Below, in pieces: positions 8,247 to 11,824 of a stretch of 41,384 bases of DNA. The DNA is taken from positions 1 through 41,384 of the forward strand of contig DASTWL010000024.1 in assembly GCA_035765895.1 (NCBI GenBank), given 5' to 3'. Position 1 is the first letter of the stretch. Every line of letters starts with the position of its first letter. Origin of the DNA: Verrucomicrobiia bacterium. GTDB lineage: Bacteria > Verrucomicrobiota > Verrucomicrobiia > Limisphaerales > DSYF01. The notes beneath the pieces were generated by a model. The model searched no databases. It had not been told where the DNA came from and saw only the letters and a program-made list of their open reading frames with translations. The translations under genes and the position numbers were made by a program.

Positions 8247-9656
8247 TCAAAGATTCATCGTGCGGGCGATGCGTTCGACTGCGTTCACCCCGGACACAAT
8301 CGAATCGCCCAGCGAAATGCCGCCGCGGTAATGGCCGGCCAGGAAGAAACCCGGCGCCTGCGCCTCGATTTCCGTCATTCGCGCGCGGTATTTGCCGTAG
8401 CCGAGATTGTATTGCGGAATGGCCTTGGGCCAAAACACGGTGTGCTGGAATGTCGGCTCGCCGTGCACGCCGAGCAACACGCGCAAATCGGCCTGCACCA
8501 GCTCATACAGCTTTTCCGCCGGCAGCGACGCCAGTTCCGGATAACGCTCACCGCCGATGTAGTTGGTCAATGTGAGATGTCCGGCCGGCGCGCGGTTCGG
8601 AAACAAGGCGGACGAGAAGATCGTGCCGAGGATTTTGAAGCCTTCCACCCGGGGAATCAACATGCCGAAGCCGTTGCACGGATGCGCCACGTCCTCGCGC
8701 CGGAAGCCCAGCACCACGCTCGCCACAGGCGGATAGCGGATTTCGGAGAAGGCGGAGAGGTCGAGCCGACCGCTTGATTGGAGCGCCGAACCGGAGTTCG
8801 GCGCTCCGAGTTCAACGTGCAGTTCCGCCAGCCTGAACGCCGTGCCCGCATAAAGCACCGCGCTGTGCTCCGCCTGGCCCGCACCCGCGGCATTCTTGAA
8901 GTTCACCGTCCAGCCGTTGGCCGTCTGCTTGAGCTGCGTGACGCTCGTATTCAGTTTGACCGCGGCGCCGAGCAGCTCGCGCAGGGTGTCGGGCAACACC
9001 TGCAAGCCTTCGTCGAAGGAAAACTTCGGCGCGCGGTCCTTTGCGACTTCGCCGCGCTTCTTGCGTTCACGCGCCCCGAGGATCTGGCCCCTGATCATTG
9101 AGCCGTATTTCTCTTCGAGCGCGGCGAGCTTGGGAAACGCCTGCTGCACGGAAAGCTTTTCCGGATCGCCCGCGTAAATGCCCGCCACCAGCGCATCAAT
9201 CGCGTGGTCCAGAAACTCCGGACACAGCCGGCGCCGGACAAAATTGGCGATGCTCTCCTCCTGCCCGTCCCGCTTCACCGGCCGGAACGGCTCGCGCAGC
9301 ACGGCCCACTTGGCGCCGAGCGTGAACAGCGGCGTGGTGAAGAATCCCAGCGGCGAGCCCGGCATTTCGATGGGCCGGCGGTAGCGCACCACGTAACGCG
9401 CCTCCGCCTGCGGGTCCGGGTCCAGGCGCCGCGGCTGCAGCCCGGCGTCATTCACGAGCTGCGTGATCTTGGGGGACGTTTCGAGGATGGTGTTCGGCCC
9501 GAACTCGGCGAGATAGCCGTCCTTGCGCAGGCTCTGAATCGCCCCGCCCACCCGGCCCGTGGCTTCATAGACCGTGACCGGAATCCCGCGGCGCTGGAGA
9601 TAAAACCCCGCCGTGAGTCCGGTGATACCGCCGCCGATGATGGCTACGGGTTTCAT
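8247..9656 (-). CDS. hemG: Protoporphyrinogen oxidase, HemY-type FAD enzyme
   Basis: A 469-residue flavoprotein beginning with the FAD-binding motif 'VAIIGGGITGLTAGFYLQRRG' region (residues 4-24). It continues with 'VYEATGRVGGAIQSL' and ends with 'GFFLAGHYRGGISLGDSIVSGVNAVERI', the second FAD-contact motif of this family. It oxidises protoporphyrinogen IX to protoporphyrin IX. The start lies 7 bases after a duplicated hemN stop codon (see 9664-9730), which suggests hemN and hemG were once directly coupled. A perfect 12-bp inverted repeat lies inside the coding sequence (8780-8807). Coproporphyrinogen oxidase (Gram-positive HemY) is a close relative, but hemN and hemH context favours the protoporphyrin route. 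Confidence 0.93.
   Translation of the reverse strand: MKPVAIIGGGITGLTAGFYLQRRGIPVTVYEATGRVGGAIQSLRKDGYLAEFGPNTILETSPKITQLVNDAGLQPRRLDPDPQAEARYVVRYRRPIEMPGSPLGFFTTPLFTLGAKWAVLREPFRPVKRDGQEESIANFVRRRLCPEFLDHAIDALVAGIYAGDPEKLSVQQAFPKLAALEEKYGSMIRGQILGARERKKRGEVAKDRAPKFSFDEGLQVLPDTLRELLGAAVKLNTSVTQLKQTANGWTVNFKNAAGAGQAEHSAVLYAGTAFRLAELHVELGAPNSGSALQSSGRLDLSAFSEIRYPPVASVVLGFRREDVAHPCNGFGMLIPRVEGFKILGTIFSSALFPNRAPAGHLTLTNYIGGERYPELASLPAEKLYELVQADLRVLLGVHGEPTFQHTVFWPKAIPQYNLGYGKYRARMTEIEAQAPGFFLAGHYRGGISLGDSIVSGVNAVERIARTMNL
8780..8807. repeat. Perfect 12-bp inverted repeat inside hemG
   Basis: GGAGCGCCGAAC, then a 4-base loop CGGA, then GTTCGGCGCTCC: both arms match over all 12 bases. It codes in frame for part of a Gly/Ser/Ala-rich segment of HemG. 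The form resembles short palindromic elements that can insert into reading frames. Only one copy of this exact arm was noticed in the window. Confidence 0.85.
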
Positions 9657-9663
9657 GAAAAAT

Positions 9664-9730
9664 TAAATCGTCCGCGAAGGGCGCCGTTTGCCCACGGGGG
9701 CAAGCGTGTTGTCGAAGCCCATCGCGATGT
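9664..9730 (-). pseudogene. Duplicated 3' end of hemN (remnant)
   Basis: Read on the minus strand in the hemN frame, this segment encodes 'FDNTLAPVGKRRPSRTI' and a TAA stop. The C-terminus of the intact HemN is 'FDNTLAPVGERRHSRTI'. Aligned bases 9665-9730 against 10450-10515 show 7 mismatches in 66, several of them at third codon positions. The remnant stop is 7 bases before the hemG ATG, where an intact hemN would naturally have ended. It marks the far edge of the inserted toxin-antitoxin cassette. Confidence 0.85.
9665..9730. repeat. Direct repeat, left copy (hemN 3' end)
   Basis: Left member of an imperfect 66-bp direct repeat, 59 of 66 bases identical by hand alignment to 10450-10515. 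The offset between copies is 785 bases, and the intervening DNA is almost entirely the toxin-antitoxin pair. Confidence 0.85.
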
Positions 9731-9733
9731 GGT

Positions 9734-10063
9734 TCAGGCCGCGAGCAGTTCCGGATGACGTGCCGCGATCCGCAGCAACTTCAAGGCGGCACCGCTGGGT
9801 TCACGCTGGCCCGATTCCCAACTGATGGCGGTGGGCTTGGGCACGTTGAGCAGCGCCGCAAAGACGGCTTGGCTGACGCCCAGGCGTTTTCGCAACTCGG
9901 CGATTTCGCGGGGCTTGATGGACTTCTCGCGCGGCGGCAGGGCCAGCCGCGTGGTGCGCATCGTCAGGCGTTTACCGCCGCTGACGTGCTTGGCCACCCC
10001 CTCAAGACGCCGGATCAGTTCCTCAGCGTCGAATTCAATCTCATTTTTTGTTTTGCGCGGCAT
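9734..10063 (-). CDS. XRE-family antitoxin (HigA-like)
   Basis: A 109-residue protein. The C-terminal half is a helix-turn-helix: 'PREIAELRKRLGVSQAVFAALLNVPKPTAISWESGQREPSG' region, followed by 'ALKLLRIAARHPELL'. The N-terminal part is basic and acidic mixed, without known motif. It starts inside the end of the upstream RelE/HigB-type toxin gene, with a 23-base overlap. Toxin-first order is the HigBA arrangement. It should neutralise the toxin and repress the shared promoter. Because the toxin is frameshifted, the antitoxin may now be an orphan regulator. Its 3' end abuts the duplicated hemN tail. Confidence 0.85.
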   Translation of the reverse strand: MPRKTKNEIEFDAEELIRRLEGVAKHVSGGKRLTMRTTRLALPPREKSIKPREIAELRKRLGVSQAVFAALLNVPKPTAISWESGQREPSGAALKLLRIAARHPELLAA

Positions 10064-10392
10064 AAGCTTGTTCGATTTGTCGGGCCAGCAGGCGCAGACG
10101 GAACCGCTGGTCGGCCGACAGGTCTGACTGCCGGGATTTCGTGTAGAGAAACAACAGGATCACCTTCTCCACGCGTGGCAGGTGCAGATAAATCACCCGG
10201 GCGCCAGCCGATTTACCCCGCCCCGGCAACTTCATCCGCACCTTGCGGAGGCCCCCCCGAGTCTCGGATCACATCGCCCTTGTCTGGATTGTGAAGCAGT
10301 TCGAGTTGCAACGCCCGCAACGCTTCCTCGTTGGCGATCCGATGCAGGTCGCGCGTGAACTCCGGCACCTCCACAAACTCCAGCGCCTTCAT
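10041..10392 (-). pseudogene. RelE/HigB-family toxin, frameshifted
   Basis: Two frames together make one toxin of about 116 residues. The first begins at the ATG at 10392 ('MKALEFVEVPEFTRDLHRI') and runs to 'GDVIRDSGG'. The second continues 'LRKVRMKLPGRGKSAGARVIYL' region, then 'VEKVILLFLYTKSRQSDLS'. The join is at a run of seven C on the plus strand (10252-10258); removing one base restores a continuous frame. The complete protein would match RelE/ParE-superfamily ribosome-dependent or HigB-like RNases in length and order. The indel may be a real inactivation or a homopolymer sequencing error. It directly precedes and overlaps the XRE antitoxin. Confidence 0.8.
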
Positions 10393-10447
10393 ACGAGCGG
10401 ATTCTATACTACCATGTAACACACCGCAAGCCGGGAACGACAGGCGA

Positions 10448-11824
10448 TCAAATCGTCCGCGAATGCCGCCGTTCGCCGACGGGCGCGAGCGTGTTGTCGA
10501 AGCACATCGCGATGTTGCGGATGAACAGGCGGCCCGTCTCGGTGACGTCCAGGCCCGCGGCCGTGCGTTGCACCAGTCCATCCGCCTCGAAGGGCGCGAG
10601 CGCAGCCAGTTCCGGCGCGAAGTGCTCCGCGAAGTTGATGCCGAGCTTCCGGCCCATCGCGGCGAAGTCGAGCGAGAGATCGCACATCACCCGCATGATG
10701 GTTTCGCGGCGGATGTGGTCTTCCGGCGTCACGAAATACGCCTTGTGCAACGGCGCGCGGCCGCCATCCACCGCCGCCTGCCAGACCGGGAGTTCCTTCT
10801 CGTTCTGCCAGTAGGCGTCGGGAATCTGCGAGATGCTGGACATGCCGAAGGCGTAAATGTCCGTCCCCGCGCGCGTGCTGTAACCCTGGAAATTCCGCTG
10901 CAACTGCTTGTTCCGCTGCGCCACGGCGAGTTCGTCGTCCGGCTTCGCAAAATGGTCCATGCCGATGTAAACGTAGCGGTCATCCTCGGTCAGGCGCTCG
11001 ATGACGGTCTTGAGAATCTGCAGCTTCACGTCCGCAGTCGGCAGGACTTTTGCCTGCAAAATTTTCTGCGCCGGCTTGATCCACGGCACGTGCGCGTAGC
11101 TGAACACGGCCAAACGGTCGGGCTGCATCTGGAGCACCGTGTCGAGCGTGTGGTTGAACGACGCCACGGTCTGATGCGGCAGGCCGTAAATCAGGTCAAG
11201 ATTCACCGAGCGGAAGCCCAGTTCGCGCAGCCAGTCGAGCGCCTGCTGCGTCATGGCGACGGGCTGGATGCGGTGCACGGCCTCCTGCACCTGCGGGTTG
11301 AAATCCTGCACGCCCATCGAGGCGCGGTTGAAGCCAATCTCCGCCAGCGCCACCACGTGGTCCCGCGTCAGCCGGCGCGGATCCACCTCGACGCTGGCCT
11401 CGATGTCGGCGGCGAAATCGAAGTGCTGGTGGATGATTTCGCCGAGGCGGCGGATTTCGTCGGGCTTGAGGAACGTGGGCGAGCCGCCGCCGAAATGGAG
11501 TTGGACGGCCTTGCGCTGCCGGTTGAGGAGCGGCGCCATGAGCGCGACTTCGCGGCCGAGCGCCTCCACGTAGCCCATGCCGCGGCTGTGATCGAGCGTG
11601 ATGACCGTGGTGCAGCCACAGAACCAGCAGAGCGTTTCGCAGAACGGAATGTGAAAATAGAGCGACAGACCGCGTTCGGTCTCGTTGTTGGCCGAGATGC
11701 GGTCGCGCAGCGCCTCCCACGTCACGGCCTCCGTGAATTTGGTGGCGGGCGGATACGACGTGTAGCGCGGGCCGGGCTGGTTGTATTTCTCAACCAGGGC
11801 AAGATCAACTTTGAGCGTGCTCAT
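10448..11824 (-). CDS. hemN: Oxygen-independent coproporphyrinogen III oxidase
   Basis: A 458-residue radical SAM enzyme. The N-terminal 'YNQPGPRYTSYPP' is typical of true HemN. The cluster motif is 'CETLCWFCGC' (Cys-x3-Cys-x2-Cys, with the extra Cys of HemN). 'LHFGGGSPTFL', 'GVQDFNPQVQEAVHRIQP' and 'NLDLIYGLPHQT' follow, and the C-terminus has 'VTETGRLFIRNIAMCFDN'. It makes protoporphyrinogen IX from coproporphyrinogen III without O2. It lies 57 bases after hemE on the same strand. The last 66 bases are the right copy of the direct repeat, so the present C-terminus may have been brought by, or rebuilt after, the toxin-antitoxin insertion. Confidence 0.95.
   Translation of the reverse strand: MSTLKVDLALVEKYNQPGPRYTSYPPATKFTEAVTWEALRDRISANNETERGLSLYFHIPFCETLCWFCGCTTVITLDHSRGMGYVEALGREVALMAPLLNRQRKAVQLHFGGGSPTFLKPDEIRRLGEIIHQHFDFAADIEASVEVDPRRLTRDHVVALAEIGFNRASMGVQDFNPQVQEAVHRIQPVAMTQQALDWLRELGFRSVNLDLIYGLPHQTVASFNHTLDTVLQMQPDRLAVFSYAHVPWIKPAQKILQAKVLPTADVKLQILKTVIERLTEDDRYVYIGMDHFAKPDDELAVAQRNKQLQRNFQGYSTRAGTDIYAFGMSSISQIPDAYWQNEKELPVWQAAVDGGRAPLHKAYFVTPEDHIRRETIMRVMCDLSLDFAAMGRKLGINFAEHFAPELAALAPFEADGLVQRTAAGLDVTETGRLFIRNIAMCFDNTLAPVGERRHSRTI
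10450..10515. repeat. Direct repeat, right copy (3' end of intact hemN)
   Basis: Right member of the 66-bp imperfect direct repeat shared with 9665-9730. It forms the functional C-terminal codons of hemN. No inverted terminal repeats or transposase gene accompany the pair. Confidence 0.85.

Follow-up and report, generated by a model that had tools for sequence, protein, structure and literature searches.

A second hemN 3' end beside a toxin-antitoxin pair in a Limisphaerales heme gene cluster points to capture of foreign DNA through a conserved gene end

Integrative elements that enter the 3' ends of tRNA or protein-coding genes supply a replacement end for the gene. In its classical form, homology-facilitated illegitimate recombination (HFIR) mostly deletes DNA of the recipient. 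For restriction-modification systems, insertion with long, variable target duplications is described (Nobusato 2000 Gene 259:99), at least in the accounts of that work given in PMC3031569 and PMC4978471. A sequential displacement akin to HFIR has been proposed for T6SS effector-immunity arrays and Rhs orphans (PMC5361080), and both HFIR and the integration of circularised fragments by single crossing-over have been described (PMC3240628). What is new at the locus reported here is the evidence that two repeated gene ends belong to two lineages, together with the recurrence of the arrangement at a heme operon; otherwise it is a variant of these known parallels.

The window, by which we mean the whole stretch of 41,384 nucleotides that was analysed (genome G000), carries on its minus strand the gene order hemE, hemN, toxin-antitoxin (TA) pair, hemG, hemH. 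The features of the hemN–hemG region are as follows.

10448..11824, minus strand: hemN, oxygen-independent coproporphyrinogen III oxidase, 458 aa, intact (TIGR00538, 598 bits)
10447..10515, minus strand: proximal copy of the hemN 3' end, the functional C-terminus, stop TGA (direct repeat and silent differences from the distal copy)
10393..10446, minus strand: 54-bp leader from the hemN stop to the toxin start, presumed from its position to be the TA promoter/operator
10041..10392, minus strand: probable RelE-family toxin gene with a +1 frameshift at the 7-base homopolymer 10252-10258 (PF06296 on the C-terminal half)
9734..10063, minus strand: HTH antitoxin gene, 109 aa, intact, overlapping the toxin end (HTH_3 and MqsA_antitoxin matches)
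9662..9730, minus strand: distal copy of the hemN 3' end, stop TAA, decayed (direct repeat; C>G, E>K, H>P)
8247..9656, minus strand: hemG-type protoporphyrinogen oxidase, 469 aa, intact (TIGR00562, 305 bits)

The HemN protein is 88% identical to that of a member of the same genus. An earlier note on this DNA had claimed that near-identical hemN 3' ends flank the cassette, and the claim holds: the direct repeat (9662-9730 and 10447-10515) is ungapped, 69 bp long and 88% identical, with the copies 785 bp apart. Over the last 66 nt of hemN, 58 positions are identical (the note had counted 59), and the 8 differences amount to three amino-acid changes, four silent changes and one change of stop codon (TGA/TAA). 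The local alignment score of the repeat is 52, against 16 in shuffled sequence, which rules out a chance repeat; no other direct repeat of at least 35 bp was found across the 41-kb window. The distal copy encodes IAMGFDNTLAPVGKRRPSRTI followed by the stop, and its three substitutions C>G, E>K and H>P are unique to it among the relatives compared. It lies next to the hemG ATG (9656), as had been noted, although the gap is 6 bases and not 7. The functional 458-aa hemN ends in the copy at 10448, in agreement with the proposal that a second 3' end kept the gene intact. The insert between the copies measures 716 bp (leader, toxin gene and antitoxin gene) and has a G+C content of 62%, the same as its surroundings. 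Like the earlier reader, we saw neither a transposase nor an integrase in it; the TA pair is all that it holds, and every PF00589 match of the genome falls on another contig. Target duplication by a transposon was rejected, since the insert has no transposase and a 69-bp repeat is far too long.

The antitoxin matches HTH_3 (9e-09; 35.7 bits, cut-off 23) and MqsA_antitoxin (5.5e-08), is NadS-like with a score below the cut-off, and stops 3 bases from the distal hemN copy. The C-terminal half of the toxin matches PF06296 at 7.8e-06, just under the cut-off because the frame is broken. The two halves of the toxin lie in different frames, with the break at seven C on the plus strand (10252-10258), and several homologues carry both halves in a single frame; the frameshift may instead be a sequencing error. 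The cassette had been called a toxin-antitoxin cassette, and a pair of RelE-type/HTH appearance is indeed present, but judging from the broken toxin frame it is probably not functional as a pair. Toxin-first order, overlapping genes and an HTH antitoxin are shared with type II TA modules (RelE-family toxin of PF06296, MqsA-like or NadS-like HTH antitoxin), from which the broken toxin frame of G000 sets it apart. In the close relatives of the pair (G040, G182) the toxin genes likewise appear damaged. A search with the antitoxin in 320 genomes revealed no genome with this TA pair directly downstream of hemN and no candidate donor. Viral contigs gave one weak, partial match to the antitoxin and none to the hemN end, and the idea that the pair is phage cargo was dropped on these grounds.

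Kinship places G000 in an order whose named relatives are Limisphaerales and other Verrucomicrobiota. The hemN gene and its downstream region were collected from about 120 genomes of the order Limisphaerales. In about 46 of about 118 loci hemN and hemG overlap at their stop and start codons (ATGA) or are separated by up to about 60 bp, in line with the earlier view that the two genes once abutted; in G000 the cassette separates them. Foreign genes occupy the gap in about 30 further loci; in the remainder hemG is elsewhere or out of reach. Among the genes found at the junction are a type II methyltransferase with an HTH protein (G224), a methyltransferase with a weak restriction-enzyme match (G235), an HSDR_N protein (G202), REP-associated tyrosine transposases, or RAYTs (G218, G207, G237 and, on a split contig, G232), and a TupA-like gene (G230, G227). 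The junction looks like a small hotspot for defence or selfish modules. The genes in the gaps of G224, G202 and G235 (L203, L211, L215) are of restriction-modification type. Four species that share a genus (L189, L208, L191, L218) have a RAYT flanked by GGAG-type REP palindromes immediately after hemN. Within the genus of G000, hemN and hemG of G001 are separated by a degenerate stretch of 1660 bp (L032 2612-4271), so that G001 offers no clean empty site; the stretch contains coiled-coil-like and response-regulator-like frames, and no remnant of a hemN tail was found in it. A tandem repeat array, possibly CRISPR-like, lies behind hemN in G002 (L033 3056 onward; translated motif FNPRPALASGA / IRAPPSRAGR).

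Second copies of the hemN end were sought with a profile of the last 27 HemN residues in 320 genomes and by comparing each hemN end with its own downstream DNA. Such a search for other cassettes flanked by gene-end duplicates, which the earlier note had advised, recovered this arrangement in other genera, where the cargo is unrelated (G030, G218, G232), and remnants in G211 and G204. In G030, which belongs to a different family, hemN is followed by a 140-aa ORF and then by a second tail of 54 nt. In G218, REP-RAYT-REP follows hemN, and a second tail some 100 nt long then comes before a small gene and hemG. The G232 locus is divided between one contig with hemN and a RAYT and another with the second tail, a 339-aa gene and hemG. 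An 18-nt remnant of the tail (RHSRTI) stands in G211 15 nt before a small gene, with the same gene and spacing as in G218. In G204 a free hemN tail (L196 2115-2192) lies far from hemN; a TupA-like gene, such as stands behind hemN in G230, comes immediately after it, and on its other side is an apparent RelE-type TA pair. Extra hemN ends that the profile search returned in G141, G123, G121 and G206 were pieces of hemN cut by contig ends and were not counted. As a control, hemE, hemG and hemH were inspected for duplicated 3' ends in 36, 57 and 46 loci, and none was seen. A mirror case occurs in G114 (L261), where a polysaccharide-deacetylase ORF between hemN and hemG starts with a displaced hemG 5' end (MKQQTVAIFGAGITG; 32/39 nt, score 25 versus at most 15 in 200 shuffles). 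In its congener G026 the site is empty, with hemN and hemG five bases apart. The genomes G207 and G237 carry hemN followed by a RAYT and no second tail.

The proximal and distal copies of G000, G218, G030 and G232 differ by 26 silent and 8 replacement changes, a total of 34 in which G218 and G232, sharing a genus, are perhaps not fully independent. Under neutral change 9.1 of the 34 would be silent (P 2e-9). If the resident copy is taken as fully selected and the other as free, 42% silent changes are expected (P 5e-5), and leaving out stop-codon changes under the same null gives P 9e-4. Given this excess of silent changes, the copies would have diverged mostly inside working hemN genes, one of them having come from another lineage. 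The suggestion that the two hemN ends descend from different lineages is thereby made probable, as far as substitution patterns can tell. Local tandem duplication followed by decay is disfavoured by the same counts. The differences lie mainly 3' of about -43 (counted from the hemN stop), a clustering that is weakly significant (combined P 0.016): each copy starts with a near-identical block and diverges after it, as expected if a crossover fell in the conserved block upstream.

The grouping of the copies with native hemN, a check that had been put forward with the original observation, favours the distal copy in G030. Its distal tail matches the hemN tail of the congener G134 at 50/54 positions and has the same TAG stop, against 44/54 for the proximal tail, roughly what the remainder of the gene shows. 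G134 is an empty site: behind its hemN come the same RHH-type and phosphoesterase genes as behind the G030 distal tail, where an N gap in the scaffold intervenes. In G218 the distal tail ends 15 nt before a small gene, and the closest hemN among those compared is that of G211, with an identity of 89% overall that falls to 82% over the last 138 nt, the part containing the proximal copy; the distances of the two G218 copies did not tell the native from the incoming one. Behind the distal tail of G232 stands a gene whose N-terminus is found in G013 directly after hemN. Gene neighbourhood thus puts the distal copy of G030, of G218 and probably of G232 next to a gene that in a relative stands, or probably once stood, behind hemN. 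For G000, the distal copy and G001 have two informative silent sites in common, which speaks for the distal copy as the native one, while the three replacement changes unique to it are a counterweight, and no clear ancestry break was found along hemN between G000 and G001. The distal copy of G000 would then be the native hemN end displaced downstream, and the 3' part of the proximal copy would include incoming sequence.

We regard it as reasonably probable that a foreign fragment with a hemN 3' end and its neighbour was captured by a single crossover in the end of the resident hemN. This reading builds on the presence of two copies, their mainly silent differences, the cargo of other genera, which is unrelated, and the native surroundings that relatives reveal for the distal copy. 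A fragment from another lineage would have brought its own hemN 3' end plus the adjoining gene or genes, here the RelE/HTH pair. One homologous crossover would have taken place within the highly conserved last ~100 bp of the resident hemN, and the other end would have been joined without long homology, either from a circularised fragment, Campbell-style, or by HFIR. The product would be a recipient hemN completed by the foreign 3' end, then the foreign neighbour, the displaced native end and the native hemG; later the displaced end would have decayed and the toxin would have lost its frame. A homologous anchor and a foreign gene end ahead of the cargo, as in HFIR or single-crossover capture, are found indirectly, in the two hemN lineages and in the displaced native end of G030. 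We count in favour of capture the hemN–RAYT loci of G207 and G237, where the single tail would be the cargo-side arrangement, the mirror event at the hemG 5' end of G114 with its empty site in G026, and the absence of duplicated 3' ends from the hemE, hemG and hemH loci inspected. We count against it that HFIR normally deletes, so that an insertion with duplication would need a circular intermediate or a sister-chromatid event. On the same side weigh the lack of this TA pair behind hemN in any genome searched, the lack of a clean empty site in G001, the small number (two) of silent sites that favour the distal copy in G000, the G218 distances, which do not tell the two copies apart, and the weak significance of the clustering of differences. 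The resemblance to the displacement proposed for T6SS and Rhs loci lies in a conserved upstream anchor, a module that enters behind it, and an old 3' end or immunity gene orphaned downstream. Here, by contrast, a housekeeping heme gene rather than a polymorphic toxin serves as the anchor, its product stays essentially the same, and the cargo is arbitrary (TA pair, transposase, membrane ORF).

The earlier note had likened the insert to an integrative element of the tRNA-site type, and the hemN 3' end could be an attachment site for non-autonomous cassettes that carry a replacement hemN end and use an integrase in trans. The gene end is restored in every case, so that hemN stays whole through an insert-supplied end as at the known attachment sites; in G000 and G030 the cargo ORFs stop 3-10 bp short of the second tail, a near-identical block opens each copy with divergence after it, the event recurs at one gene in several families, and all these genomes have integrases elsewhere. 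Yet the inserts of G000, G030 and G218 contain no integrase, nor do the hemN contigs of G000 and G218. Counted from the hemN stop, the junction offset varies by case (-54, -68, about -80, about -90 to -103), though the stretch around -54 to -43 is common to all of them. The single tails of G207 and G237, the mirror event at the hemG start and the viral contigs free of a hemN end do not fit either. The literature searched yielded no link between hemN and an attachment site. We consider the comparison with tRNA-site elements not sustained and site-specific integration rather unlikely. It is quite improbable, in our estimate, that across Limisphaerales the conserved end of hemN serves as a genuine attachment site, at which a family of small cassettes, each made of a gene and a spare hemN end, would be moved in an integron-like manner by some recombinase acting in trans.

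Insertion with a long target duplication would start from a widely staggered break in hemN, with the target copied locally and the extra copy decaying. The architecture is identical to that described for restriction-modification systems, and restriction-modification genes occur in the same hemN–hemG gap in G224 and G235. As in the accounts of those insertions (PMC3031569, PMC4978471), there is a self-contained selfish module, a long direct repeat of target sequence, no transposase and support from genome comparison. The flanking repeat does measure tens of bp (69 bp in G000, about 100 bp in G218, 54 bp in G030), and empty sites exist in relatives (many abutting hemN-hemG pairs; G134 for G030 and G026 for G114). 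However, copies of one target sequence should differ mostly by replacement changes in the unselected copy, whereas 26 of the 34 changes are silent (P 5e-5 with the conservative null), and the distal copy of G030 is nearer to the congener than the working copy is. The hemN copies thus appear to come from different lineages and the cargo is not tied to one function, unlike the restriction-modification insertions as those accounts present them. We judge such a duplication improbable.

A third explanation is REP/RAYT single-strand transposition near hemN, whose breaks or rearrangements would have duplicated the gene end. RAYTs flanked by REP palindromes with a GGAG foot are found at the duplications of G218 and G232, with the right junction at a REP end in both. 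Neither a RAYT nor a REP-like palindrome was seen in the TA insert of G000, though, and the G030 insert has neither, its RAYT being upstream of hemN; G207 and G237 have a RAYT beside hemN and no duplication. We hold this explanation to be very unlikely. An assembly or binning artefact is extremely improbable: all the genomes are draft assemblies, an N gap comes right after the second tail of G030, and the G232 locus is broken across two contigs, but in G000 and G218 a single contig holds both copies far from its ends, the copies diverge at 12-15% of sites, and the native neighbours fit on both sides.

The route by which small modules without an integrase, such as TA pairs, enter chromosomes is poorly documented. 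The hemN–hemG locus provides several snapshots, with empty sites in sister species, and points to capture by way of a housekeeping gene's conserved end. By the same token, some of the long target duplications in the literature may be imported gene ends; counts of silent versus replacement changes between the repeat copies would tell.
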